From a virus, in IMG/VR virus record IMGVR_UViG_3300021425_000032, positions 1-64,000 of that record: 64,000 nucleotides of DNA; one strand, written 5' to 3'. Both the position numbers and the translations under genes were made by a program. Shown piece after piece: positions 871 through 54,110 of the stretch (position 1 is the first letter of the stretch; every line of letters starts with the position of its first letter). Under the pieces are notes generated by a model, which worked only from the letters and a program-made list of their open reading frames with translations, made no database searches and was not told the DNA's origin.

Positions 871-892
871 TCACTTTACTTTTTAACAAAAA

Positions 893-929
893 GGTGCTAT
901 ACTAAGTATACAGTATAGTGCCTTTTTTT
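893..929 (+). terminator. Rho-independent terminator
   Basis: An 11-bp stem (GGTGCTATACT at 893-903 with AGTATAGTGCC at 912-922, one G-T wobble) closes an 8-base loop and is followed by seven T residues. It separates the upstream block from the tailoring operon that starts at 944. Confidence 0.9.
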
Positions 930-943
930 ATGGAAGAGAATAA

Positions 944-2659
944 ATGAGAAAAATTTTTAGTATTCCTCTAAATCCTAAGTTATCAAACGAACAATATGTA
1001 GAGTTTGTTAATTTTATTAGAGAGTACAAAGATCACATTAAAGATGTATATTTTACATGCAGAATTGCTCCGTTTGCACAAGATGCTATGGGCGATATCT
1101 TTGTACAAGATGAAGACTACAAGTTAGCCATTGAGCAAGCAGTGTTTGTACAACAACAAACAGGCGTCCCAGTGAGTGCTACATTTAATAACATTCAAGT
1201 CCCGCCTAGTCAAAAAAACTTAGATACATTTATAAAAAACTTTAAACCTGTTTACGATGCTGGTGTACGTATTGCAACTATTCCGCATACACATTGGATG
1301 GCAACAGGACAGATACAAAAAGCATTTCCTGAATTATACATAAAAAATACTATACTACGAGATGTTAGAGTAGCATCAGAAATTGTAAGTTTAGCAAAGT
1401 ACGGATTTGATTATATAAACCTTGACAGAGATCTTATGCGTGATAGAGACACGCTAAAAAGATTACTTGAAGCAAAAGTTTGGATTAAGGAAAATTACGG
1501 TAAAGACATACACTATAGTTTGTTAGCAAACGAAGGTTGCAAAGGCAACTGTCCAATGATGGTTGAACACTTTGAATATAATAATACTAGAGCAGGTCAA
1601 GAACCTCAATATTTTAATAACCCTATTAGTAGAGTAAGTTGTCCTAAGTGGGATGTTGATGATCCTAGCATACATTTAAAAACAGCCAATATTACTCCTT
1701 GGAGAGAAGATTGGGAAGAATACTTAGACGAACTAGGTATAGATGTTTTTAAAATGCACGGCCGTGAAGCAGTAAGTAGATTGTATGAAACAATGAATAT
1801 TGTAAAACGTTGGGCATCAGGTGAACCATTACTATACGACAACTTTGAAAAATATTTAGAAAGTACAAATCTTAAAGATAGGCCAATTGATGCTTGGCGT
1901 AAGAAAATTAAAAATTGTAAATTTGATTGTTGGGAATGCCATTTTTGTGATGACATTTACAAAGTAAAATCTAAAATTGAACACACAGACAAAGTTAAGC
2001 ATGTAGCAGAAAGCATATTAATAAGCGGTGTGCCAACTGTAAATACACGTATACCTGGACTTACAAGTCCTAGAGTACAAACTGTATTAAATCATATTGC
2101 AAGCGGATCTACACATTACATGGAAGTGGGCGTAGCACAAGGTGCAACATTTTGTGGAGCAATTAAAGATAATAATTTAAATGCTGTAGCAATTGATGAT
2201 TGGCAAAGTGATATACAACCTGCTGATCCAAATGCTCCAAGATTACCGCATAACGAAAAGGCTAATTTCTTAAAAAACTTAGACAGTTACAAACAAGAAA
2301 ATAATGTAGAAGTAATTGATAAAGATTTATTTGAAGCAGATGTGTCACAGTATAACGGTAAGATAGACATGTGGTTTTATGACGGACCACACGATGCAAC
2401 AAGTACTGAACAGGCTGTACTACATTATAAAAATGTGTTTGCTAAAGAGGCTGTGTTAATCTTTGATGATGCAAATTGGCAAGGTGTAGTTGAAGGTGCA
2501 AGAACCGGTATTAACAAAGCAGGCTTTGAAGTTGCATATGAAAAGATGCTATTGTGTGACGTAGAAGATTTAGAAAGTTGGTGGAATGGTTTGTATGTTG
2601 TTGTACTTGCTAAACCAGAAGAAGAATTAATATCAATAATAGAGGAAGTAGAATGGTAA
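944..2659 (+). CDS. U32-peptidase-like / SAM methyltransferase fusion
   Basis: A 571-residue two-domain protein. Residues 1-340 resemble the peptidase U32 family, TIM-barrel proteins with Fe-S clusters that includes RNA hydroxylases and UbiU/UbiV. The segment around residues 260-275 (LDELGIDVFKMHGRE) matches the family signature, and seven Cys lie in cluster-like spacing (C199-x3-C203, C233, C325-x3-C329-x2-C332-x2-C335). Residues 390-560 look like a class I methyltransferase of the Methyltransf_24 type, with glycine-rich motif EVGVAQGATF near 394 and acidic FYDGPHD and IFDDANW segments. It leads an operon with a halogenase and an oxygenase (8-base overlap with the halogenase). Domain assignment is by eye; the substrate is unknown, RNA or a small molecule being equally possible. 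Confidence 0.65.
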   Translation: MRKIFSIPLNPKLSNEQYVEFVNFIREYKDHIKDVYFTCRIAPFAQDAMGDIFVQDEDYKLAIEQAVFVQQQTGVPVSATFNNIQVPPSQKNLDTFIKNFKPVYDAGVRIATIPHTHWMATGQIQKAFPELYIKNTILRDVRVASEIVSLAKYGFDYINLDRDLMRDRDTLKRLLEAKVWIKENYGKDIHYSLLANEGCKGNCPMMVEHFEYNNTRAGQEPQYFNNPISRVSCPKWDVDDPSIHLKTANITPWREDWEEYLDELGIDVFKMHGREAVSRLYETMNIVKRWASGEPLLYDNFEKYLESTNLKDRPIDAWRKKIKNCKFDCWECHFCDDIYKVKSKIEHTDKVKHVAESILISGVPTVNTRIPGLTSPRVQTVLNHIASGSTHYMEVGVAQGATFCGAIKDNNLNAVAIDDWQSDIQPADPNAPRLPHNEKANFLKNLDSYKQENNVEVIDKDLFEADVSQYNGKIDMWFYDGPHDATSTEQAVLHYKNVFAKEAVLIFDDANWQGVVEGARTGINKAGFEVAYEKMLLCDVEDLESWWNGLYVVVLAKPEEELISIIEEVEW

Positions 2660-4161
2660 GAAAGATAGTTATATTTGGCGGCGGCACAAGCGGATGGCTT
2701 ACAGCTGCTTACTTAACTAATAATTTAGTAGACCCTGTTGAAATACAACTAATTGAAGATGCTTCAAAAGGACCAATTGGTGTGGGAGAAGGAACACAAC
2801 CACTTACGGCATCGTTCTTATACAAGTGTGGTATTAGTGCTAAAGACTGGATGAAGCCTAGTAATGCATCATTTAAATATGGTGTAGAATTAACAGGTTG
2901 GAATGACGAACCTTATTTTGTTGACAATGATGTAGTTGACAATGTTTTACCAGCACCTCATCTTCCTGTAAGTAAATATTTTATTGACAAGCCGTATAGT
3001 GAATTTAAAAAGTGGCATCCTGCATATAGACTAGCAAAGAATAATACTGCTACAAAAATTGATAGTGAAACTGATATTAATTTTAATGTAGGACTAGATA
3101 GTTACGGTGCTGTACATTTTAGTGCATACGATATTATTGATACAATTAAAAAGTTAATATTAGATAGAATTGATTACGTTGATACTAAGATCACACAAGT
3201 TGGTAATGATGCAACTGGTATAACTAAACTTATAGACGAAACTGGCAAAGAGTATACTGGAGACTTGTATATAGACTGTAGCGGATTTCAATCTTTGCTG
3301 TTAGGTAAAACTTTAAAAGAGCCGTATATAAGTTACAACAAATGGCTACTCAACGATAGTGCTGTTGCTATGCCAAAACAGTATACTGATCCGGAAGAAG
3401 AATGTTTTCCTTATACTAAAGCAACTACTATGAATGCTGGATGGAGATGGACTATTCCTACATACCATCGTATTGGTAACGGATATGTTTATAGTTCTAA
3501 ACATATTACTCCTGAAGAAGCCGAGGCAGAATTACGTGAAGCAATTGGCGAATACGATGCTCCTGCAAATCATTTAAAAATGCGTATAGGCTCGCACGAA
3601 AATGTTGCTGTAAAAAATGTTCTTGCTGTAGGCCTTTCAGCTGGATTTATAGAACCCTTAGAAGCAACAGGTATTACATTTACTACAGCACTAGTTACAT
3701 CTTTTGCTGACTTAATGAATCGTACAGGTAACGTGTGGGACGATGGACCAAAGTCGATGATTAATAGAGGCTTTTATGAAATGAGTATAGAAATACTAAC
3801 CTTCATATATGCACACTATTATTTTAGTAATAGAAATGACACACCATATTGGCAAGAAATAAGATCAAAGACATTAGACGAACTTCCGGCAGATGCTAGA
3901 ATGATGATGAGTCAGTATTATCCTAAATTACAAGACTTTATATTCTTTACGCCTGGTAGTATGTTTAGTAGTATTCAATGGTGGTCAATGTTACATGCAG
4001 GCGGTGCATATCCAAATGAAAAATGTGAGCTGTCAGAACAACAAAAGAAATATGTTGAACACTTTATGAAAGTACAAGATGTAAGGGTTGATAGTGCCAA
4101 AGAGTTATTTGGCAATCACTATAAATTTTTAGATAAATGGTACAAAGAATGGCAAGAGTAA
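2653..4161 (+). CDS. Flavin-dependent tryptophan-halogenase family protein
   Basis: A 502-residue FADH2-dependent halogenase. It has the Rossmann motif GGGTSGW (residues 9-15), GVGEGTQP (43-50), the conserved Lys of the NASFK segment (K75), the signature WRWTIP (264-269) that blocks NADPH use in this family, and GLSAGFIEPLEATG (327-340). All hallmark motifs are intact and the length is normal, so activity is likely. A marine cyanophage halogenase of this family (VirX1 of phage Syn10) has been shown to iodinate diverse substrates, so this may be a relative. It overlaps both neighbours and sits in an operon with a methyltransferase fusion and an oxygenase. The substrate cannot be read from sequence; no flavin reductase is seen nearby. 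Confidence 0.92.
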   Translation: MVRKIVIFGGGTSGWLTAAYLTNNLVDPVEIQLIEDASKGPIGVGEGTQPLTASFLYKCGISAKDWMKPSNASFKYGVELTGWNDEPYFVDNDVVDNVLPAPHLPVSKYFIDKPYSEFKKWHPAYRLAKNNTATKIDSETDINFNVGLDSYGAVHFSAYDIIDTIKKLILDRIDYVDTKITQVGNDATGITKLIDETGKEYTGDLYIDCSGFQSLLLGKTLKEPYISYNKWLLNDSAVAMPKQYTDPEEECFPYTKATTMNAGWRWTIPTYHRIGNGYVYSSKHITPEEAEAELREAIGEYDAPANHLKMRIGSHENVAVKNVLAVGLSAGFIEPLEATGITFTTALVTSFADLMNRTGNVWDDGPKSMINRGFYEMSIEILTFIYAHYYFSNRNDTPYWQEIRSKTLDELPADARMMMSQYYPKLQDFIFFTPGSMFSSIQWWSMLHAGGAYPNEKCELSEQQKKYVEHFMKVQDVRVDSAKELFGNHYKFLDKWYKEWQE

Positions 4162-4724
4162 ATTTATTTAGATCAGATTTTTTTGTTAGTAAAGTAGGTA
4201 ATGAGGATCAGGTTACTAAGTTAAAAGAACAAATGCTATTAGCACAACAAAACAATGTTGACGAAATTGCAAACAGTAATGATCGTTGCTGGCGTAGTAC
4301 TGTTAAGTATGAAAATATTGATTGGCTGTTAGACGGCGTCAAAGAGCTTGCAGAAGAAGCAATAGACTATTATAGTAGTTTAGATAGCACATTTAAAAGA
4401 CATATAGTTGAAAGACATATTAGTTTAGATTACTGGTCAAATATTAATAAGCCTGCAAGTAAAAATGTTTTGCATAATCATGTAGCAGATAGTTTTGCCG
4501 CTGTATATTACGTGCAAGGTACAAGAACAGGACCATTAAAATTTATAAATCCAGCAAATGTTTTAAATGATTGTAATACAATTAGTCCGTTTGTGCGTGA
4601 AGTTTTGGTTCACCCTCACGATGGCGAGTTGATATTATGGCCTGCTTGGGTTCCACATGAAGTAGAAGTAAATCAATCAGATAGAGACAGAATGAATATT
4701 GCATTCACACTACAGGTAGGTTAA
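4149..4724 (+). CDS. 2OG-Fe(II) oxygenase-like protein
   Basis: About 191 residues, read from the ATG at 4149, which overlaps the halogenase end. The second half fits the putative 2OG-Fe(II) oxygenase family (TIGR02466-like): LHNHVADSFAAVYYVQG gives the proximal His residues, and LILWPAWVPHEVEVNQSDRDRMNIAFT gives the distal His and the Arg that binds 2-oxoglutarate. It would use a double-stranded beta-helix to hydroxylate an unknown substrate. It lies directly between the halogenase and the first DUF6065-like protein, with its stop overlapping the next start, so it probably acts in the same pathway. Confidence 0.75.
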   Translation: MARVNLFRSDFFVSKVGNEDQVTKLKEQMLLAQQNNVDEIANSNDRCWRSTVKYENIDWLLDGVKELAEEAIDYYSSLDSTFKRHIVERHISLDYWSNINKPASKNVLHNHVADSFAAVYYVQGTRTGPLKFINPANVLNDCNTISPFVREVLVHPHDGELILWPAWVPHEVEVNQSDRDRMNIAFTLQVG

Positions 4725-5461
4725 TGTTTAAGAAAAAAGATAAAATAGAATTTTTTAGTAAGATAGCAGGCGTAGCAGAAGCGTTTCCTATTATTCCTGC
4801 TAAAGATTTTCGTCCTAAATGGATGTCTCGATGTAAACAAAATTACGTAGATAATAAAGATAGAAATTTACCTAGTCACTTATATCAATGTCCTGGTATA
4901 TTTGATTTGTATAATTACGGATTTATATTACCTTTATGGCATGATGTAATTATAAAAACACAAGCAGGACAGCAAGGATTTCAATACATTAATCCTAGCG
5001 AAACACTTTCAAAATTATTAGAAGGCGATCCTGTTGCTAGTCAGCCACCGGATATATCAAAATGGTTACCAAAAAGACCACACAGTATAGAAGCAATAGT
5101 AAAATTTAATACACCGTGGCATGTAGTTGCACCAAAAGGTGTAAAGTTCTTAATTACTCCTGTAGCATACAGCGATAGTTATGAATTTGAGTCTAGTATA
5201 GGTGTATTAGATCCTTCAATTAATACGGAATTAAATATACAAGGTTACTGGAATATACCAAACGGAGAACGAAAACTTACAGCAGGAACTCCAATTGCAC
5301 ATATTATTCCATTGACAGAAGAAAAATATGATCATATAATAAGAGATATGACCGAAGAAGATTGGAAGTTTTTTAGAAAGAGACTTTTTTGGGGGACTCA
5401 CTCTTTTAAACATAACAAAGCTCTAATAAAGAGCATGTACAAAAAGCATTTTGGGAGATAA
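4724..5461 (+). CDS. DUF6065-like protein, paralogue 1
   Basis: A 245-residue protein that shares its whole layout with the gene at 5867-6631: a basic start followed by KIEF, a PIIPAK segment near residue 22, a CPGIxxxxxxGxIL motif, a VKFNTPWHVVAPKG segment, and a late G-T-P-(I/L)-A motif. These features resemble the DUF6065 family, whose function is unknown. It starts inside the stop of the oxygenase gene (TAATG) and is clearly in the halogenase operon. A tailoring or carrier role is inference from neighbourhood only. Confidence 0.7.
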   Translation: MFKKKDKIEFFSKIAGVAEAFPIIPAKDFRPKWMSRCKQNYVDNKDRNLPSHLYQCPGIFDLYNYGFILPLWHDVIIKTQAGQQGFQYINPSETLSKLLEGDPVASQPPDISKWLPKRPHSIEAIVKFNTPWHVVAPKGVKFLITPVAYSDSYEFESSIGVLDPSINTELNIQGYWNIPNGERKLTAGTPIAHIIPLTEEKYDHIIRDMTEEDWKFFRKRLFWGTHSFKHNKALIKSMYKKHFGR

Positions 5462-5463
5462 TA

Positions 5464-5874
5464 ATGCCACTTATAGAACATCATACAGACGAGTTTGTTA
5501 CTTATAAACAAGAACTAAGAGAGGCAAAAGACCAGTACACACATAGAAAAGTGCAAAAAGATAGAATTAAACATGTAGGTTGGTTTAATGCATGTCTTAG
5601 CCAAAAAGATATTATAATTACTTTTAAAGGCGCAAAACAAACACAAGTAGTTGCAAGTAAAAACGGTAGTGGTGTAAGTCCGTTGCCAGAACCACCAATT
5701 ACTATTGAAAATGTTCTTGGCGAAGATGAAGAACAAATTCAACACATTGTATTTTATTCACAACCAGATGGTGAAGTTCATGTAGTGCATATAGACGATG
5801 TAATCTGTTGGACTGTAACTAACTCTATGATGAATCAAATAGATAAAATTTATAAAGGCAAAGTTCGTGTTTAA
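5464..5874 (+). CDS. Conserved hypothetical protein
   Basis: A 136-residue protein lying between the two DUF6065-like paralogues. The N-terminal third is charged and likely helical; the rest suggests beta structure (HVGWFNACLSQKDIIITF, IVFYSQPDGEVHVVHI). I recognise no family. It starts three bases after the upstream stop and its stop overlaps the GTG start of the next gene. Placement between duplicated genes suggests it works with them. Confidence 0.7.
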   Translation: MPLIEHHTDEFVTYKQELREAKDQYTHRKVQKDRIKHVGWFNACLSQKDIIITFKGAKQTQVVASKNGSGVSPLPEPPITIENVLGEDEEQIQHIVFYSQPDGEVHVVHIDDVICWTVTNSMMNQIDKIYKGKVRV

Positions 5875-6631
5875 TTGGTTTAAGAAAAAACCTAAAATAG
5901 AATTTGTATCTTTGTTCCCTGAGGTACAACAAATTATGCCTATTGTACCTGCTAGTAAAGTTAAGTTTGATTGGGTTAAACCAGCAATTGACGATTGGAA
6001 AAAAGTACAAGCAGAAAGTAAAAATACGCCTGTAAAAACAACTCATATTGCACGTTGTCCCGGCATTCATAAAATTATGCGAGAAGGTTGGATATTGCGT
6101 AGCTGGTGTGATTTTACAATCAAAACCGACGGTGACGGCAAACGCTTTCAATGGGGATCACCAGTATCGCAAGCCAGTATGGATGCAGATCATATTTGGA
6201 AGTGGGACTATCTTTCACATCATACAGAATCTATTTTTGGTCAAACAAATAGATCTAATACACTAGATACGATTATTAAAGTACAATCACCGTGGATGGT
6301 TTATATTCCAAAAGGATACAATTTACTTTGTATGCCTATACCATATCCAGACAATCATAGTTTTACAGCGGCTTCAGGATTTCTTGACGGAGATGAAGGA
6401 CCAAATTTCCTAAATGTTCAACTATATTGGCACGAATTAAATGACACAGTTAAAATTCCTGCAGGCACACCGTTGGCAATGTACATGTTAATTAAAAAAG
6501 ATAAAATAGAAGCAAACGTAAGATCTGTAGAAGATAAAGATATTAAAAATTTACGTTTAAGAAGTACTATATTAGACAATAAATTTATTGTGGACTATAA
6601 ACCATTAAAGGAAGTAAAGTGGCATGAGTAG
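5867..6631 (+). CDS. DUF6065-like protein, paralogue 2
   Basis: A 254-residue paralogue of the protein at 4724-5461, with the same order of motifs (KIEF, PIVPASK, ARCPGIHKIMREGWIL, VQSPWMVYIPKG, PAGTPLAMY). It begins with GTG, overlapping the previous gene's stop; the equivalent position in paralogue 1 is ATG, and both begin with Met-Phe followed by basic residues, which supports this start. The two copies have diverged well beyond recent duplication. Function unknown. Confidence 0.7.
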   Translation: MFNWFKKKPKIEFVSLFPEVQQIMPIVPASKVKFDWVKPAIDDWKKVQAESKNTPVKTTHIARCPGIHKIMREGWILRSWCDFTIKTDGDGKRFQWGSPVSQASMDADHIWKWDYLSHHTESIFGQTNRSNTLDTIIKVQSPWMVYIPKGYNLLCMPIPYPDNHSFTAASGFLDGDEGPNFLNVQLYWHELNDTVKIPAGTPLAMYMLIKKDKIEANVRSVEDKDIKNLRLRSTILDNKFIVDYKPLKEVKWHE

Positions 6632-6848
6632 TTTTCATAAGGTAGAAATTAGTTTATATGCAAATAAAGATACTAAGTTTATGAATGATGCACATGCACA
6701 TTGGCTAAACTATTCTGTACAGCATAGACGTATGGCAGGCTTTAGAATAAAAATAAGCCATTGTAAACAGTTTGTAACAATGAATGACGAAGAAGCATTT
6801 AAGTATTTCTTAGATACTTGGAAACATTACAAGCGAGTCATATACTAA
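6624..6848 (+). CDS. Small conserved hypothetical protein
   Basis: A 74-residue basic protein, rich in His and Lys, overlapping the end of the DUF6065-like gene by 8 bases. It has no Cys pair and no membrane segment. It is the last gene of the tailoring operon, just ahead of the late promoter at 6855. No family recognised. Confidence 0.65.
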   Translation: MSSFHKVEISLYANKDTKFMNDAHAHWLNYSVQHRRMAGFRIKISHCKQFVTMNDEEAFKYFLDTWKHYKRVIY

Positions 6849-6854
6849 ACTACA

Positions 6855-6862
6855 GATAAATA
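6855..6862 (+). promoter_or_regulatory. Late promoter GATAAATA
   Basis: GATAAATA, a T4-type late promoter element, lies 23 bases before the start of the fibre gene at 6886. It is flanked by an inverted CTACAG / CTGTAG pair. A normal ribosome-binding site (AGGA) lies between promoter and start, so this transcript has a leader. Confidence 0.7.
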
Positions 6863-6885: not shown

Positions 6886-8385
6886 ATGGCATCAAATTCA
6901 GCACCAGTAGTAGATAGAATACGCATTATACCAAGGCCTGACGATTTTTTAGATCGTAATGTAGGATCAAGTGGCGAAGTTTTCTTTGACAAGCAAGCAA
7001 ACACACTAAGAGTTTATAGTGGAAAACTAGCCGGCGGCTACACTGTTGTTACTGAAGATAATTTAGCAAGAAATATTGCTAACGCTAAGGTTGCAACTGT
7101 TAACTATGCTGTTACTATTGCATCAGCACAGGGCGACGATGTTGGAAACAAATATGTACTTAATGGAGTTTATAAACCAGACTTAAATCTTGTTATAGGT
7201 TACACATATGTATTTGATCAAACAGACCTAACTAACGTTTATTATCCAAATGCCAATGGCAGTACACTTAACGAACACCAACTTGCATTTTCAACTTCAC
7301 CTAATGGTGAGTTAGATGCAGGGCAAACAGCATACGAAGATAATGTAAGATATTTTATAAACGACGATCCTGTAACAAGAGCTGTATACTACGACAGATT
7401 TAATGAAGCAATAACTCGTCAAGTTCAAATTACAATTACAACAGATACGCCTACCACACTCTATTACTGGTGTAAAAATCATACCGGTATGGGCGGATCA
7501 ATTACTGTTGCTGAACCAGGAACAGGATCTGCAAGTGGAGGAGCAAATGTTGAAGTTTCAGATACTGCACCAGCAGAGCCAACACAAGGTACTATTTGGT
7601 TTGACAGTACTAATGGTAAAATATTTGTATACGTAACAGATGAAGATAGTAGTCAATGGGTACAGCCTACAGTGCCACTACCATCAGTTAATACATTTAA
7701 AAATGTTAGTGTTACTGGTGGGTCAACACTTGTAGCAAGTGGTAATAACGATACTATAAACTTTGCACCAGGTGCAAATGTAACATTAGATGTTGACGGT
7801 GCTACAAATACAATTACAATAAACAGTTCGGGCGGCGGCGGTAGCACTTACGACCAAAGTCTTAACACTACTGATGACGTAACATTTGATGACTTAACAG
7901 CAACAGGTACATTAACAGCAAATAGTGTAAACGCATCATCAATACAAAATACAGGAGTAGGTGCTCCGTCATTTACTAGTGCCAGCACAATCTCATTTAA
8001 TGCCGCAGATGGTGTTAATATAGAAAATATTTTACTAACAAATGAAGTTATTACACGATATGACGACCCAGGTACTACTGTCGCTATTAGTTACGATCAA
8101 GGACCAGTTTACTATCTTACAAATTTAACAGGTTCTACTAGTTTATCTCTTACTAATGTTCCTGAAACAAATGATAGAGCAAATAACATAGCAGTAGTAA
8201 TTCAACAAACAGGTACTCCGCAAACATTACAATTTTTAACCATCAATGGTAATTTAGTAGCAATTGAATGGTTAGACGGAACTATTCCAGCTGGTGTAGC
8301 AAGTAAAAAACAAGTGTTTTCTTTAAGTATGTTAAAAGTCGACGGAACATGGATGGCGTTTGGTAGTGCAGCAACTTATGGATAA
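6886..8385 (+). CDS. Tail-fibre/adhesin-like structural protein with cupredoxin-like domain
   Basis: A 499-residue low-complexity protein rich in Thr, Ser, Asn and Gly, typical of phage fibres. Residues 70-210 look like a cupredoxin fold: a HQLAFSTSPNG segment gives one His and a later CKNHTGMGG gives Cys-x2-His-x2-Met, together the usual type 1 copper ligand set. After a Gly/Ser linker come beta-rich segments and the fibre-like phrase SLNTTDDVTFDDLTATGTLTA. It is the first gene of a late operon with the beta-propeller, protease and second fibre proteins. Copper binding is inference; many phage proteins may keep the fold without metal. Confidence 0.75.
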   Translation: MASNSAPVVDRIRIIPRPDDFLDRNVGSSGEVFFDKQANTLRVYSGKLAGGYTVVTEDNLARNIANAKVATVNYAVTIASAQGDDVGNKYVLNGVYKPDLNLVIGYTYVFDQTDLTNVYYPNANGSTLNEHQLAFSTSPNGELDAGQTAYEDNVRYFINDDPVTRAVYYDRFNEAITRQVQITITTDTPTTLYYWCKNHTGMGGSITVAEPGTGSASGGANVEVSDTAPAEPTQGTIWFDSTNGKIFVYVTDEDSSQWVQPTVPLPSVNTFKNVSVTGGSTLVASGNNDTINFAPGANVTLDVDGATNTITINSSGGGGSTYDQSLNTTDDVTFDDLTATGTLTANSVNASSIQNTGVGAPSFTSASTISFNAADGVNIENILLTNEVITRYDDPGTTVAISYDQGPVYYLTNLTGSTSLSLTNVPETNDRANNIAVVIQQTGTPQTLQFLTINGNLVAIEWLDGTIPAGVASKKQVFSLSMLKVDGTWMAFGSAATYG

Positions 8386-8390
8386 TTGCT

Positions 8391-9713
8391 ATGCCAAGAT
8401 ATAGTTCATTTAGTTCATCATTATATAATAAACCAACAACCAAAGGATTTGCTCTTATTAGGACATTAGACAATCCTAATCCAAGAGGTATTGCTAATTC
8501 AGATGCGTTTGGCACAAGTGTTGCTGTAGGTCCTAATGATATTGCTGTTGGTGCTCCGGGAGAAGATGGTACGCAAGGTGTTCCGTCACAAGGTGCAGTT
8601 TATGTATATGATAAAGCAGGATTCTTAAAATACACAGTTGAGAACCGCAATCTTTTAGCGCCAATAAATGCAGGTGACGGCGATAGATTTGGTACAAGTG
8701 TTGCACTTAATTCAAGGCATCTTTTAGTAGGAGCACCTGGTGAGAACCAAGTAGTAGGTGGTTCTACTGTAGACAATAATGGTATGATTTATATTTACTC
8801 AGTTGCACCAACCACTCCGGGAACACTACTGATGAATTACGGAAGTCCAAATCCTGCTACAACAGGAGTAACAGCCAACGGTGACGCATTTGGACAAACT
8901 GTTGCACTTAGTGAAAATTATATGTCTGCATCTGCTTATAGAGAGGACGCTGTGGGACTAGGCGATGATACAGGATACACATATATCTACGATATAACAG
9001 GGGTAAACACATCTAACTTTCCGGGAAGTGAAGCACACAGTATAGAAAATCCTAACTTAGATAATGAAGACGAATATCCAGGTGACCAAATTGGTGAAAA
9101 GATAAACACGTTGGCAATGACTAATACATACACAATGATAGGCAACTGGAGAGAAAACGAACCAGGAGCGTTAGGACAAGGCGATAGTGGTGCATTCTTT
9201 CTATTTAATAACTCAACAGGCGCAACAGATCAATCAATCTACAATCCAAAAGAAGACGCACTAGACTTAGATGATAGATTTGGCTATGCTGTAGCACTTA
9301 ATGACTCGTATGCTGTAGTTGGCTGTCCAGGCGAAGACAGCGACGGTAATAACAGTGGTAGAGTATATGTATACAATCCTTCAACAGGAGCACTTGTAAC
9401 AACAATAAGTAATCCTAACGAATATGGTACAGTAAATGATGACAGATTTGGTGAGTCTGTAGCAATTAATGATGACTATGTTGCTATTGGAGCATTAGAA
9501 GAAGATGATGCAGATGGAACACAAAGTGGTGTAATATATATTTTTAAGACCGTTGATTGGACTTTGGCAACGACCATTACTAATCCAAATAAATACACTA
9601 CAAGCACTAATGATAGATTTGGTCATACAATTAGAATGGACAATGATGTTTTAGTAGTAGGTGTTCCTGCAGAAGAAGCAGGTAGTGGCGCTGTTTATAT
9701 TTACAAGGTGTAA
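8391..9713 (+). CDS. FG-GAP-like beta-propeller virion protein
   Basis: A 440-residue protein built from about seven repeats of the form DxFGxSVAxxxxxxxVGAPGE...GxVYIY, as in integrin-type FG-GAP repeats that form a beta-propeller and often bind Ca2+ through Asp-rich loops (for example DGDRFG, NDDRFG). Such propellers serve in adhesion. There is no signal peptide. It is co-transcribed between a fibre-like protein and a protease, so it is probably exposed on the tail or fibres and takes part in host recognition (inference). Confidence 0.75.
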   Translation: MPRYSSFSSSLYNKPTTKGFALIRTLDNPNPRGIANSDAFGTSVAVGPNDIAVGAPGEDGTQGVPSQGAVYVYDKAGFLKYTVENRNLLAPINAGDGDRFGTSVALNSRHLLVGAPGENQVVGGSTVDNNGMIYIYSVAPTTPGTLLMNYGSPNPATTGVTANGDAFGQTVALSENYMSASAYREDAVGLGDDTGYTYIYDITGVNTSNFPGSEAHSIENPNLDNEDEYPGDQIGEKINTLAMTNTYTMIGNWRENEPGALGQGDSGAFFLFNNSTGATDQSIYNPKEDALDLDDRFGYAVALNDSYAVVGCPGEDSDGNNSGRVYVYNPSTGALVTTISNPNEYGTVNDDRFGESVAINDDYVAIGALEEDDADGTQSGVIYIFKTVDWTLATTITNPNKYTTSTNDRFGHTIRMDNDVLVVGVPAEEAGSGAVYIYKV

Positions 9714-9715
9714 GA

Positions 9716-11305
9716 ATGGAAAGAGAATATATTGTAGTTGTAAAAAGAGGTGTAGACCTAGACGCATTTGATGCTGAATTAGCGGCAACTACCGGCATGG
9801 GTCCTATACCTAATAGAAACGTTGAAGTAGCAAATCCTAGAATTGGCTCAAAACGTATGACACACTGGATGTTAACTGATGAGGAAGCAGAAGTACTCAA
9901 AGGAGATCTTAGAGTGCTAGATGTTGAGATACCACCCGAACAAAGAGATGACGTTGTAATGGTATCACATGCAACACAAGAAGATACATTTTATAGATCA
10001 ATTGACGGAACAACACCTACTGTAAACAGTTATGTTAATTGGGGGTTAAGGCGTTGTAATGAAACAAGTAATGTATATGGTTCAAATAATACCGTAGCAG
10101 GCAACTATGATTACGCATTAGACGGAACTGGAGTAGATGTTGTAATACAAGACAGTGGCATTGATCCAGATCATCCTGAATGGAATGATGCTAGTGGCAC
10201 ATCAAGACTACAACAAATTGATTGGTATACAGAAAGTGGCTTACCAGGTACGCAAAGTGCAGATCACTACAGAGACCGTGACGGCCACGGTACCCATTGT
10301 GCAGGTATTGTTGCTGGAAAAACATACGGCTGGGCCAAAGGTGCTAACATATATTCACAAAAAGTAGCAGGACTAGAAACACTTAGTGGTCCAGACGGTA
10401 CAGGTATTGCTGTATCAGATGCATTTGATGCTATAAGATTATGGCACAACGCAAAGAAACTGACAAATGGTAGACCTACTGTAGTTAATATGAGTTGGGG
10501 GTATTCTAGTACCTCAACATCAGACCCAACTGAAGGAACTTATAGAGGCACAGCATGGACATATGGAGTAGATTATACAAGTAGAGGTGAGTTGCTAACA
10601 GCAACAGGTGTGCATCCTGCTTACTATCAAGGCGGAACTCAAACAAGACTGCCTGTAAGAATAGCATCAATTGATGCTGAAGTCGAAGATATGATCGATG
10701 CTGGAATACATGTTTGCATTGCAGCAGGAAATCAACTTACAAAAATTGATATTAACGGTGGCTCTGATTTTGACAACGAAGTTACTTTTGATGGTAATTC
10801 AGTTAACTATCATAGAGGGAGTTCGCCATTTAGTAATGAAGCATTTATAGTAGGCAATATAGACTCAGAAGTTAATGCAGGAGGAGTAGACCGCACAGCA
10901 CTGTCAACAAACAGAGGACCTGGAGTTAACATTTTTGCACCTGGTACAAATATTATGAGTACAACAAGTACACAAGCAGATGCATCTTATACAGTTTTAG
11001 ATTATCCAGACGATAATAATTTCCAAATTATGGCAATTGGTGGCACTTCAATGGCTGCTCCGCAAGTAGCAGGTGTGTGTGCTCTATATTTACAAGTACA
11101 ACCAAATCTTAGACCAAATGCTTTACAAAATAAAATGCTTAGTGATGCTAGTGTAGACAACATATGGGATACAGGAAATGACGATGACTATACCAACTTT
11201 ACTACAAGTATGTTAGATGGGCCTAACAAAACATTATACAGTAAATATGGAACACCAACACCTTGGGTACTTGGCGGAACGATAAATATTAGTGGAGGCT
11301 CTTAA
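9716..11305 (+). CDS. Subtilisin-like serine protease (S8 family)
   Basis: A 529-residue protease with the full S8 catalytic set: Asp146 in QDSGID, His191 in GHGTHCAG, the oxyanion Asn339 in AAGNQ, and Ser445 in GGTSMAAPQVAG. Residues 1-95 are a separate N-terminal region, possibly a propeptide or virion-targeting domain; there is no signal peptide. It lies between the beta-propeller and a fibre gene, three bases from the first and overlapping the second start (TAATG), so it is made late and may be carried in the particle. Possible roles are cutting host surface protein or maturing the fibres; neither is shown. Confidence 0.93.
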   Translation: MEREYIVVVKRGVDLDAFDAELAATTGMGPIPNRNVEVANPRIGSKRMTHWMLTDEEAEVLKGDLRVLDVEIPPEQRDDVVMVSHATQEDTFYRSIDGTTPTVNSYVNWGLRRCNETSNVYGSNNTVAGNYDYALDGTGVDVVIQDSGIDPDHPEWNDASGTSRLQQIDWYTESGLPGTQSADHYRDRDGHGTHCAGIVAGKTYGWAKGANIYSQKVAGLETLSGPDGTGIAVSDAFDAIRLWHNAKKLTNGRPTVVNMSWGYSSTSTSDPTEGTYRGTAWTYGVDYTSRGELLTATGVHPAYYQGGTQTRLPVRIASIDAEVEDMIDAGIHVCIAAGNQLTKIDINGGSDFDNEVTFDGNSVNYHRGSSPFSNEAFIVGNIDSEVNAGGVDRTALSTNRGPGVNIFAPGTNIMSTTSTQADASYTVLDYPDDNNFQIMAIGGTSMAAPQVAGVCALYLQVQPNLRPNALQNKMLSDASVDNIWDTGNDDDYTNFTTSMLDGPNKTLYSKYGTPTPWVLGGTINISGGS

Positions 11306-12885
11306 TGGCATTAAATTTTCCAGCAACACCAGATGTAGATGATACGTTTACTGACGGCACAACTACATGGATTTGGGACGGTACTTCTTGGAACGTAGTT
11401 TCAGGTGGAGGAATATCTGCTGAACAGCCAGATGCATTTAAAACATTTACAGCAGACACAGGAACTACTACAGCAGATAACGAAAATGATTCTTTTGCTA
11501 TAACAGGTGGTACTGACATAGTTACAGCAATAACTGGCGATGAAGTAAGTATTAGTTTTAACGGTGCTGTTGGTGATCCTGATCAAAATGTATTTTCTCA
11601 AATTGATGCAGATGTAGGATCTATTTCAGCATCTACACCTACTGATACAGTAACATTTGAAGGCGGAACTAACGTAGCCACACAAATTGTAGGTAATACA
11701 ATAACTATAAATGGTACTACACCTACACTTAGTATAAATGATTTAACTGATGTTGACACAACTAATACAACCCCAGTTGCAGGAAATGTTTTAAAATGGG
11801 ATGGTTCTAAATGGTCACCAGGACTTGATTCTACAACAGGTGGCGGCGGCACAGACGCCGATACACTAGACGGACAAGACAGTGTTTACTTTTTAAATTA
11901 TAATAACTTCATTAACACACCTACAATACCAGCAGATGTAAGCGACTTAACAGATACTACAAGTTTATTGTTTAGTGGCGATTTTGCAGACCTAGCAAAT
12001 AAGCCAACTACAATAGCAGGTTACGGAATAACAGATGCGTTTGACGGATCATTTGCAAACTTATCAAATAGACCAACTACAATAGCAGGTTACGGAATTA
12101 CTGATGCTGTTGAAGATTTTGCAGACTTAGGTACAACACCAACTACACTTTCAGGATATGGTATAACTGATGCATTAAGCACAAGTTCTAATCTTGCAGA
12201 TTTAGCAGATGTTGGTAATGCTGTTCCTAGCACAGGTCAAGCATTGGTATGGTCAGGAACTGAATGGGGACCTGACACAGTAAGTGGTGGCGGAGGAGAT
12301 CCAGACCAAAATTTATGGGAAACATTCAACGGTGATGCAGGATCAGTTACAGCAAGTTCTACTACAGGCACGTTTACTTTTGCAGGCGGTACGAATATTA
12401 ACACCACTGTAACAGGAACTCAAGTTAGAATAGATATGCCAGCAACACTAGGTGTTAGTAAGTATGACGATTTAGAAGAAGTTGTACGAACTGGTAGAAC
12501 CATTGATAAAAGTTTTATGCCTGCTATGGCAATGATTAGAATGAATAACGTAGGTAATACAGCATATTCTGTTGACAGTCATGGGTATTCAGGAAACAAT
12601 CCAACATTATATGCAATAGGTGGTATGACTATTGCGTTTGACTTAGATCAAATCGGAGGACATCCATTTGAAATACAAGATCCTACTGGAGGGGCATACA
12701 ATACTGGATTATTCCATGTAGATATTATTGGTAACGTGACATCGGGATCAAACGCACAAGGCAAAGATGGCGGAACATTATACTGGGAAGTTCCTGAAAC
12801 AATTTCGGGCAACTACAGATATCAATGTACATTGCACCCTGCAATGGTAGGTGCTATAACAATTAAACGTATATCACAAATTTAA
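11305..12885 (+). CDS. Tail-fibre-like protein with GYGITDA repeats and cupredoxin-like C-terminus
   Basis: A 526-residue fibre-like protein. The middle holds three imperfect copies of a roughly 26-residue repeat, each with PTT(I/L)xGYGITDA, a phrase common in phage tail fibres. The C-terminal 110 residues resemble a cupredoxin domain: GGHPFEI supplies a His and YQCTLHPAMVG supplies Cys-x3-His-x3-Met. The N-terminus (MALNFPATPDVDDTFTDG...WIWDGTSW) is a common attachment-like motif of marine phage fibres. It ends convergently with the minus-strand gene at 12874, overlapping by 12 bases. Confidence 0.8.
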   Translation: MALNFPATPDVDDTFTDGTTTWIWDGTSWNVVSGGGISAEQPDAFKTFTADTGTTTADNENDSFAITGGTDIVTAITGDEVSISFNGAVGDPDQNVFSQIDADVGSISASTPTDTVTFEGGTNVATQIVGNTITINGTTPTLSINDLTDVDTTNTTPVAGNVLKWDGSKWSPGLDSTTGGGGTDADTLDGQDSVYFLNYNNFINTPTIPADVSDLTDTTSLLFSGDFADLANKPTTIAGYGITDAFDGSFANLSNRPTTIAGYGITDAVEDFADLGTTPTTLSGYGITDALSTSSNLADLADVGNAVPSTGQALVWSGTEWGPDTVSGGGGDPDQNLWETFNGDAGSVTASSTTGTFTFAGGTNINTTVTGTQVRIDMPATLGVSKYDDLEEVVRTGRTIDKSFMPAMAMIRMNNVGNTAYSVDSHGYSGNNPTLYAIGGMTIAFDLDQIGGHPFEIQDPTGGAYNTGLFHVDIIGNVTSGSNAQGKDGGTLYWEVPETISGNYRYQCTLHPAMVGAITIKRISQI

Positions 12886-48695: not shown

Positions 48696-48874
48696 GACAT
48701 AAAATAGCAGGAGTAATTTTTTTACTGTTAGGTATATACTTTTTGTACCAAGACACAATGCCAATGCACGGCAATACACTTTTAGGCATAGGAGAAATGA
48801 CTTGGATGTGGTTTACAATGGCCGTAGTACATTTCTTTATACGTGATTGTAATTGCAAGGAGTGTTGCAAATGA
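48692..48874 (+). CDS. Small membrane protein
   Basis: A 60-residue protein with two hydrophobic segments (IAGVIFLLLGIYFLYQ and MTWMWFTMAVVHFFI) and a Cys-rich tail (CNCKECC). It overlaps both neighbours by four bases (ATGA). Likely inner membrane. The Cys tail may bind metal. Confidence 0.75.
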   Translation: MRHKIAGVIFLLLGIYFLYQDTMPMHGNTLLGIGEMTWMWFTMAVVHFFIRDCNCKECCK

Positions 48875-49647
48875 GAATAATTGCAGGGCCATGCCAACAC
48901 GAATCACTAGATAAAAGTTATGAAATTGCTAAAGAATGTAAACGTGTGTGCGATAAACTTGGCATTGAGTATTATTTCAAAGCAAGTTATGATAAAGCAA
49001 ATCGCACAAGTGCATCTGGTATCCGCGGACAAGGATTGCCTGCAACGATGGCAGACTTTCGCACATTAAAAGAAAAGTTAAATATTAAAACACTAACAGA
49101 TGTACACAATCAAAATGAAATATTAAAGATTGGTGCATATTATGATGACGCTGTTGATGTTATACAGATACCTGCATTTCTTTGTAGACAAACAGACTTA
49201 ATAAAAGCTGCATGTAAAACAGGTAAAATAGTAAATATAAAAAAGGGTCAGTTCTTAGCACCTTGGGATATGAAAGGTGTACTAAGTAAAACTGAAGGTG
49301 CAAAAGAAGTTTGGATAACTGAACGAGGAACTAGTTTTGGATATAACACTCTTGTCGTGGATTTCACTGGTCTACAGTATATGCTTGATAATTATGATGT
49401 GCCTATCGTGTTGGATGGCACTCACGCAGTACAGAAGCCGGGAGGACAGGGTGACTCTAGTGGCGGTAATCGTAATTATGTCCCTGGGCTCGTTCGTGCT
49501 GGGTCTGCTCTTGGGATCGACTCCTTCTTTATGGAAGTCCATGCTGACCCTGATGTAGCACCTAGTGATGGTCCTAACATGCTATACTTAAAAGACTTTG
49601 AGGAGGTGGTACGTGACATCGTCAGCTATTCATATGAGAAACTGTAG
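48871..49647 (+). CDS. kdsA: Kdo-8-phosphate synthase KdsA
   Basis: A 258-residue enzyme that condenses PEP with arabinose-5-phosphate to make Kdo-8-P, the core sugar of Gram-negative lipopolysaccharide and some capsules. Family motifs: AGPCQHES, FKASYDKANRT, VIQIPAFLCRQTDL, NIKKGQFLAPWDM, TERGTSFGYNTLVVD, LDGTHAVQKPGG and FFMEVHADPDVAPSDG. The Cys in GPC marks the metal-dependent class. About 20 residues shorter than typical bacterial KdsA. The second half has C-ending codons unlike its neighbours. No CMP-Kdo synthetase was seen. Confidence 0.95.
   Translation: MRIIAGPCQHESLDKSYEIAKECKRVCDKLGIEYYFKASYDKANRTSASGIRGQGLPATMADFRTLKEKLNIKTLTDVHNQNEILKIGAYYDDAVDVIQIPAFLCRQTDLIKAACKTGKIVNIKKGQFLAPWDMKGVLSKTEGAKEVWITERGTSFGYNTLVVDFTGLQYMLDNYDVPIVLDGTHAVQKPGGQGDSSGGNRNYVPGLVRAGSALGIDSFFMEVHADPDVAPSDGPNMLYLKDFEEVVRDIVSYSYEKL
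49337..49558 (+). CDS. Nested membrane-protein ORF inside kdsA (candidate)
   Basis: An out-of-frame ORF of 73 residues inside kdsA, from TTG 49337 with GAGGAA 6 bases upstream. It has two hydrophobic segments (LLSWISLVYSICLIIMMCL near residue 5 and VTLVAVIVIMSLGSFVLGLLLG near 38) with RSREDR between, a holin- or hairpin-like layout. The kdsA codons in just this stretch switch to C- and G-ending choices, as if fitting two frames. It could still be chance, so confidence is low. Confidence 0.3.
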   Translation: MDITLLSWISLVYSICLIIMMCLSCWMALTQYRSREDRVTLVAVIVIMSLGSFVLGLLLGSTPSLWKSMLTLM

Positions 49648-52970: not shown

Positions 52971-54110
52971 ATGGATACTCGTATACACGAGATTTTAGAT
53001 AAAGAAGTAGATAGACAGGCTACTACAGTCGAATTAATAGCAAGTGAAAACTTTGCTAGTGCCAGCGTTATGAAACTAAGTGGCAGTGTGTTTACAAACA
53101 AATACGCTGAGGGTTATCCAGGCAAGCGTTACTATAATGGTTGCGAGCATATGGACGAGATAGAAGCACTTGCTGTAGACGAACTATGTAAGTTGTTTAA
53201 GTGTAACTATGCCAATGTACAACCACACTGTGGTGCAAATGCTAACACAGCAGTGTACCAAGCATTCCTAAATCCAGGTGATAGTATACTAGGAATGGAT
53301 CTAGCAAGTGGAGGACACCTAAGCCACGGAAGCCCACCAAACATTTCAGGCAAGGTGTATAGTGCATGTAGTTACGGCGTAAAAGAAGACGGTTATTTAG
53401 ACTACGATAAAATAGAATGGATGACCAAAGAATATCGTCCTAAAATGATTATTGCAGGTGCAAGTGCATATCCTAGACAGATCAATTGGGAAGTATTTAG
53501 AAAGATAGCAGACAAGTATGGTGCATTACTGTTAGTTGACATGGCGCACTACAGCGGTCTTATAGCAGGCGGAGCATACCAGTCGCCACTAGCATATGCG
53601 GACGTAGTTACAAGTACAACACACAAGACCTTACGCGGTCCTAGAGGTGGTATTATACTATGGAACAACCCAGAGTACACACGTAAAATCAATAGTGCAA
53701 TTTTTCCTGGCACACAAGGCGGACCATTGATGAATCAAATTGCAGCCAAAGCACAATGTTTCATAGAAGCAAATACACCCGAGTTTAAAGACTATGCAAA
53801 GCAAGTTGTTAAAAATGCAAAAGCCATGTGTGTTGTGTTTAAGGACAAAGGATTTAAATGCTTGACAAATGGAACAGATTCGCATATAATATTATTAGAT
53901 TTAAGTAATAGCAAATATAGCGGAAGAGAGGCTGCTGACTTGTTGGAAGAAAACGGTATTACTGTAAACAAGAACGGTGTACCAAATGACCCAAGAAGTT
54001 TTGTAGAAACAAGTGGTATTAGAATTGGAACAGCAGCAGAAACAACTCGCGGTCATGATGAAAAATGGTTTAAGGAATTAGCGGAAAAAATATGCCAGAT
54101 ATTGACATAG
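52971..54110 (+). CDS. glyA: Serine hydroxymethyltransferase GlyA
   Basis: A 379-residue PLP enzyme converting serine and tetrahydrofolate to glycine and 5,10-methylene-THF, feeding thymidylate synthesis. Motifs: ELIASENFAS, TNKYAEGYPGKRYYNGCE, QPHCGANANTAVY, VDMAHYSGLIAGG and the PLP-Lys site TSTTHKTLRGPRGG are all intact. Bacterial GlyA is about 415, so roughly 35-40 C-terminal residues are missing, ending at KELAEKICQILT; the active-site part is complete. It overlaps the mini-DnaE gene by 19 bases. Confidence 0.95.
   Translation: MDTRIHEILDKEVDRQATTVELIASENFASASVMKLSGSVFTNKYAEGYPGKRYYNGCEHMDEIEALAVDELCKLFKCNYANVQPHCGANANTAVYQAFLNPGDSILGMDLASGGHLSHGSPPNISGKVYSACSYGVKEDGYLDYDKIEWMTKEYRPKMIIAGASAYPRQINWEVFRKIADKYGALLLVDMAHYSGLIAGGAYQSPLAYADVVTSTTHKTLRGPRGGIILWNNPEYTRKINSAIFPGTQGGPLMNQIAAKAQCFIEANTPEFKDYAKQVVKNAKAMCVVFKDKGFKCLTNGTDSHIILLDLSNSKYSGREAADLLEENGITVNKNGVPNDPRSFVETSGIRIGTAAETTRGHDEKWFKELAEKICQILT

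Follow-up and report, generated by a model that had tools for sequence, protein, structure and literature searches.

The first 64,000 nucleotides of the IMG/VR virus record IMGVR_UViG_3300021425_000032 (65,561 bases in all), referred to below as the window, carry a run of seven same-strand open reading frames at positions 944-6848. It starts with U32MT, a fusion of a U32-like domain and an O-methyltransferase, and continues with a halogenase, an oxygenase, two DUF6065-like genes (DUFa and DUFb) and two short genes (p136 and p74); together these apparently form a linked, conserved and co-inherited set of tailoring type, related to the locus of the viral halogenase VirX1. The run of overlapping or nearly abutting genes behind a terminator, described in an earlier note on this DNA, is confirmed: in gene order, the first three junctions overlap by 7, 13 and 1 bp, the fourth is a gap of 2 bp and the last two overlap by 8 bp each. 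Gene content, linkage, promoter pattern, fold similarity and the intact halogenase motifs were all computed. The features of the locus are as follows.

875-903, plus strand: sigma70-type promoter, 40 bp ahead of the U32MT start: TTTACT-N17-TATACT, the -10 preceded by TG (9 of 12 matches)
888-927, plus strand: terminator of the preceding gene, a hairpin with a T tract that overlaps the -10 of the U32MT promoter
944-2659, plus strand: U32MT, U32-like/O-methyltransferase fusion (phrog_1458, E 1e-167; PF13578, E 1.4e-10)
2653-4161, plus strand: predicted FAD-dependent halogenase, VirX1-related, motifs intact (PF04820; VirX1 profile match)
4149-4724, plus strand: predicted 2-oxoglutarate (2OG)-Fe(II) oxygenase (PF13759, E 2.3e-14; phrog_81, E 1.2e-24)
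4724-5461, plus strand: DUFa, DUF6065-like (phrog_7084, E 4e-39)
5464-5874, plus strand: p136, 136 amino acids, kept only in the window-like clade
5867-6631, plus strand: DUFb, DUF6065-like, GTG start (phrog_7084, E 2.9e-46)
6624-6848, plus strand: p74, 74 amino acids, conserved among the nearest relatives
6855-6862, plus strand: T4-type late promoter NATAAATA, serving the tail-fibre-like gene that comes next (6886) and marking the operon end

The gene families of the window were mapped onto 132 fetched loci. A search of relatives for the same gene order, as the earlier note had suggested, found it kept in dozens of contigs, far beyond chance. Among 57 non-redundant metagenomic contigs with U32MT, 40 carry both the halogenase and a DUF6065-like gene, 15 carry neither and 2 have one without the other, and each of the 41 halogenase loci in this set includes a 2OG gene. 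The linkage statistics ignore shared ancestry, which inflates the Fisher value, and the conclusion is therefore not rested on that value. An independent line is provided by Syn10, in which the VirX1 gene (matched full-length by 6qgm) overlaps a DUF6065-like gene. The DUF6065-like gene lies beside a halogenase in 14 of the 15 cyanophage records that have one, and in S-CREM1 a matching halogenase-DUF pair precedes several annotated 2OG oxygenases in a row. U32MT, for its part, is separable from the halogenase: 16 of the 57 contigs have U32MT without it and, among the records listed from 123 isolate cyanophage records with U32MT, none has an adjacent halogenase (in S-ShM2, S-RIM14 and S-SSM2 a partial halogenase lies at a distance of about 20 kb, and in the others none was detected). 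The earlier note had proposed to judge the operon by whether the partner genes occur unlinked to the halogenase in relatives, and this is what was found for U32MT. Given this co-occurrence, the VirX1 locus and the occurrence of U32MT alone elsewhere, the core module is taken to comprise the halogenase, the 2OG gene and DUF, with U32MT added to it in this phage group. Pairwise protein distances are correlated at 0.81-0.87 among gp93, U32MT, the halogenase and DUF; with genes on the far side of the tail fibres, the correlation is 0.26-0.41. Across L029-L108, a correlation of about 0.8 gives way to one of 0.3-0.4 where the tail-fibre genes meet the nudix and tail-sheath-stabiliser genes, which suggests a recombination boundary there.

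The halogenase is a clear member of PF04820 (E 4.5e-92, 309.7 bits for a cut-off of 21), with a predicted activity. GGGTSG, GWRWTIP, Lys75 and Glu337 are invariant or conserved in 40 halogenase sequences and align with VirX1, which is also the best solved relative by profile (6qgm, E 3.3e-171; 33% pairwise identity over 420 columns). The oxygenase is likewise a clear member of its family, PF13759 (54 bits for a cut-off of 27), with a predicted activity; His110, His112, His171 and Arg182, in the numbering of a 192-residue reading, are invariant in 62 of 62 sequences. The textbook metal motif of such enzymes is HxD, and the oxygenase here shows HxH. The earlier identifications of a flavin halogenase with intact motifs, of its kinship with VirX1 and of a 2OG-Fe(II)-type oxygenase are thus borne out. 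In a tree, the viral halogenases come close to forming a single group, as all 40 of those tested cluster with a single one of 77 bacterial sequences (support 0.76), and neither DUF nor U32MT was found near any of 80 bacterial halogenase loci. Halogenases have long been known from cyanophages (PMC3037559, PMC2984593), and halogenating activity was shown for VirX1 (PMC8407142). As a separate observation, a 278-kb viral contig (L132, 10001-17179) has three tandem halogenase genes, with a DUF6065-like gene and a number of 2OG oxygenases nearby.

DUFa and DUFb are 31% identical (E 3e-34) and both belong to phrog_7084, in line with the paralogy first noted from the sequence. The DUF6065 label was less direct: PF19541 matches neither protein, nor anything in the record, at E<=10. 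Homologues of DUFb found by tblastn in HRTV-11 (E 1e-8) and Rhizobium (E 1e-5) do exceed the PF19541 cut-off (E 6.8e-7 and 9.7e-9, respectively), so that "DUF6065-like" is a fair name. A search of bacterial genomes with a single DUF protein as query found no relative. The AlphaFold model of DUFb (predicted local distance difference test, pLDDT, 89.4) points to a dUTPase/dCTP-deaminase-like fold, since all 50 of the PDB matches listed are dUTPases or dCTP deaminases; among these listed matches one only has E<0.001, and template modelling (TM) scores normalised to the target are 0.38-0.63. The sequence profile of DUFb gives 11 PDB matches, all dUTPase or dUTPase-like and all weak (E 0.05-1.3), and the cut-off of the dUTPase family PF00692 is not reached. 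By homology, DUFa is predicted to share this fold. DUF6065-like genes also occur without a halogenase, in haloviruses, S-RIM4 and the viral contig L130. In the latter (9286-10774) thyX overlaps the DUF6065-like gene, which is followed by phoH on the other strand; in HRTV-11 and HRTV-7 the gene follows thyA, and a ribonucleotide reductase gene lies near it in HF1, HJTV-1 and S-RIM4.

U32MT as a whole falls in a phage family, phrog_1458, that already covers both of its halves. Its predicted model (pLDDT 87) matches the U32 structure 5d88 as well as O-methyltransferases. The proposed Cys-rich U32-like domain, approximately residues 1-345, stands as far as fold goes: Foldseek aligns it with 5d88 at E 5e-6 (probability 1.00, target TM 0.67, 284 columns), other TIM barrels matching at lower target TM. 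Proteins of the U32 family bear four cysteines for an iron-sulphur cluster; here, Cys199, 203, 233, 325, 329, 332 and 335 are invariant or nearly so, with a spacing unlike that of the UbiU cysteines. At the sequence level the assignment to U32 did not hold. PF01136 matches neither this domain nor the record even at E<=10, it matches none of the N-terminal domains of 30 relatives, and hhalign found no match to Escherichia coli UbiU/UbiV; the domain is therefore called U32-like by predicted fold. The methyltransferase half is supported by Methyltransf_24 (PF13578), and its best PDB profile match is YrrM (E 0.0011), followed by the MW1564 protein 3ntv (E 0.016); it is a class-I methyltransferase domain, with YrrM weakly indicated as the nearest solved relative. 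YrrM/TrmR O-methylates 5-hydroxyuridine, which the Bacillus U32 proteins TrhP1 and TrhP2 help to form (PMC6599085). As a lead rather than a statement of family membership, U32MT may thus resemble the TrhP and TrmR steps in one chain.

The promoter upstream of U32MT sets the operon apart from its surroundings. The sigma70 pattern (TTGACA/TTTACA-like, 17 bases, TATAAT-like) precedes U32MT in 17 of 25 distinct window-like relatives, and a TGn extended -10 in 21 of 25; it precedes none of the other mapped genes of the same contigs (0 of 262 upstream regions), a specificity that is descriptive, as the pattern was written after viewing the sequences. With an earlier generic sigma70 score of at least 10, the figures were 44% for U32MT, 2% for shuffled upstream regions and 0-19% for other genes. 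Among distinct window-like relatives, the late motif NATAAATA stands before the following tail gene in all of 23 and before U32MT in none of 25. Its totals (16 and 1 on the two strands, versus about 18 expected per strand) are uninformative, and only its position relative to genes carries information. In the window, promoters of the sigma70 class are also seen ahead of a primase-like gene and of others that do not belong to the tail set. The late promoter of T4-like cyanophages is NATAAATA (PMC2984593), and their early class consists of sigma70 promoters (PMC3037559); from this contrast, the operon would be expressed early or by the host polymerase. The hairpin that overlaps the -10 has a folding energy of -18.7 kcal/mol (z -4.95 versus shuffles) and is missing from the list of a mechanical scan; in relatives that keep the -10, it is variable or lost.

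The explanation that we favour, tentatively and with a probability of about 0.38, is that the acceptor of these enzymes is a host-supplied aromatic compound, most likely of pyrimidine type. From the above data we infer enzyme activities, step order, acceptor class and timing as follows. The operon would be a phage-specific tailoring cassette, with a core of halogenase, 2OG oxygenase and dUTPase-fold DUF6065 protein placed behind the separable U32MT. Its own sigma70-type promoter would allow transcription by the host RNA polymerase from early infection, apart from the surrounding late tail genes. The aromatic acceptor would come from the host, with no scaffold made by the phage, and could be a nucleotide, a nucleoside or an RNA base; the pyrimidine type appears most likely because of fold and gene context, i.e., the DUF fold, the thyX, thyA and ribonucleotide reductase neighbours and the YrrM-nearest methyltransferase. 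U32MT would hydroxylate and O-methylate the ring, as TrhP plus TrmR do at tRNA U34, the oxygenase would add a hydroxyl and the halogenase a halogen, while the DUF6065 protein may bind or hydrolyse the nucleotide. In a narrower version, which seems very improbable to us, the cassette would make pyrimidines that are halogenated, or both halogenated and methoxylated, for incorporation into nucleic acid of the phage or the host, and the DUF6065 proteins would manage the matching nucleotide pool.

Several points weigh against the favoured explanation. No member of the operon has an established activity, all functions being predicted, and shared ancestry inflates the linkage statistics. The U32 assignment lacks sequence support, the YrrM match is weak, and class-I O-methyltransferases take many substrates. 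By eye, dUTPase motifs 1, 2 and 5 could not be made out in DUFb, and the motif-3 Asp (D174) alone aligns. The ribonucleotide reductase gene is on the opposite strand from DUF in HF1 and HJTV-1; moreover, the Sf-CH8 DUF has no adjoining nucleotide gene and the haloviral DUF neighbours include tail genes, so that the argument from nucleotide context is only moderate. As to timing, no such sigma70 promoter was found for the cluster of the cyanophage isolates, and in Syn10 as in S-CREM1 late motifs are located one gene upstream; early expression would be lineage-specific at best, and timing may differ between groups. Finally, the tested substrates of VirX1 are non-nucleotide aromatics (PMC8407142).

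A rival explanation is the mini biosynthetic pathway proposed earlier, in which host tryptophan, tyrosine or a similar compound would be halogenated, hydroxylated and methylated to give a diffusible product or a surface-glycan decoration. Every enzyme of the set is indeed of tailoring type, linked and conserved; VirX1 halogenates many free aromatics (PMC8407142), a halogenated amino acid or sugar product has been proposed in the part of Iyer et al. 2021 that treats a related cluster (PMC7824862), and the same phage has a sugar/surface-glycan region at about 33-55 kb. However, export and resistance genes are lacking among the seven, and so is any scaffold-building enzyme, the rest of the record being not annotated in full; no flavin reductase (PF01613) was found in the 65-kb record either. 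A biosynthetic pathway would therefore need both a scaffold and a reductase from the host. Proteins with a dUTPase fold are unusual in such clusters, U32MT is conserved without the halogenase, and fold and context of U32MT and DUF6065 are as suggestive of nucleotide- or RNA-like chemistry as of a secondary metabolite. We regard this pathway as somewhat unlikely.

The tail-gene setting would be explained if aromatic residues of tail-fibre or other virion or host proteins were the ones halogenated, hydroxylated or methylated. In most contigs the block is flanked by tail-fibre or tail-region genes and further tail-fibre genes, and it is co-inherited with gp93, bp178 and TF499, but linkage alone predicts co-inheritance with neighbours, and the halogenase is not always found by tail fibres (it lies between terminase genes in HTVC008M and a few genes after nrdB in P-SSM2). 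The late motif one gene upstream in Syn10 and S-CREM1 would suit a virion substrate, whereas the operon in the lineage of the window avoids the late promoter class. Even though the unusually open active site of VirX1 accepts large substrates (PMC8407142), modification of proteins is an unlikely role. Less probable still is a mere gathering of unrelated auxiliary genes at a recombination-prone site by the tail fibres, with no single pathway: the 2OG genes differ in number and identity, U32MT can be found apart and DUF occurs alone elsewhere, but halogenase, 2OG gene and DUF co-occur almost perfectly, in a fixed order in the U32MT contigs, and VirX1 in cyanophages has the same DUF partner.

As for the surroundings, p136 has no Pfam match and no significant PHROG match. 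A homology of p74 with the 73-amino-acid gene that follows DUF in Syn10 was considered and rejected, as the two cannot be aligned and equal length is not homology. Both flanks of the operon consist of tail-region genes; in the relative L030, large tail-fibre proteins are encoded upstream, and further downstream lie genes for a tail-sheath stabiliser (PF16724) and a member of a head-tail adaptor family. An FG-GAP repeat protein with an integrin-like beta-propeller (8391-9713; PF14312, E 2.3e-47) adjoins tail-fibre-like genes, and a subtilase-family protease (9716-11305; PF00082, E 3.4e-31) lies amid them, in the same position in many relatives. A plastocyanin-like motif was seen by eye in the tail proteins at 6886-8385 and 11305-12885 (YYWCKNHTGMGG; YRYQCTLHPAMVG). 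The long run of genes of sugar/surface-glycan type spans 33332-55133; it includes a member of the DAHP/KDO8P-synthase family (48853-49647; PF00793, E 1.1e-53), and inspection by eye adds glycosyltransferases, methyltransferases and, at 52971, a glycine hydroxymethyltransferase-like gene. Rfam and tRNA scans gave no matches. psbA was not found in the record or in nine relatives, and a cyanobacterial host is thus not supported, although fragments cannot exclude one.

We know of no native substrate for viral halogenases such as VirX1. The partner set common to this phage group and the VirX1 locus therefore names concrete proteins to test with VirX1, the dUTPase-like predicted fold together with the nucleotide-gene neighbours offers a first testable role for DUF6065, and the promoter contrast predicts early expression. 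As far as the literature found shows, the fixed DUF6065 partner (including at the VirX1 locus), the dUTPase-like DUF6065 fold, the promoter contrast and the interpretation of U32MT as TrhP-TrmR-like appear to be new. The earlier suggestion that the partner set may not be described is true in part, since Iyer et al. 2021 (PMC7824862) described a cluster from a jumbo cyanophage that combines halogenase, 2OGFeDO, cupin-like and methylase genes.

Four known systems may be compared with the operon. In the bacterial TrhP (U32) and TrmR/YrrM pathway, which leads to mo5U34 in tRNA, a U32-type fold and a YrrM-nearest O-methyltransferase are found as in U32MT; the latter is a single polypeptide, linked to a halogenase, with a different cysteine spacing and no sequence-level U32 match. 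DUF6065-like proteins resemble the dUTPase/dCTP deaminase family in predicted fold, with weak profile matches that span the motif-3/4 region, but unlike dUTPases they fall below the family cut-offs and have an extra N-terminal part with an invariant Cys64. The cluster of jumbo cyanophage S-SSM6a (PMC7824862) likewise combines a phage halogenase with 2OGFeDO and methylase partners and is read as tailoring or biosynthetic; it differs by its carbamoyltransferases, cupin-like proteins and phosphatases, and the passage that describes it mentions neither U32MT nor DUF6065. The fourth system is the VirX1 locus of Syn10, with the matching ones of S-CREM1, P-TIM40 and S-RIM44, where structural genes are followed by a halogenase, directly after it a DUF6065-like gene, then one short gene and several 2OG-type oxygenases in a row. 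These loci have no U32MT in the block, often two halogenases, a single DUF copy and no dedicated sigma70 promoter that was found, and their halogenase is 33% identical to that of the window; what they share with it is the core of halogenase, DUF6065-like protein and 2OG oxygenase.

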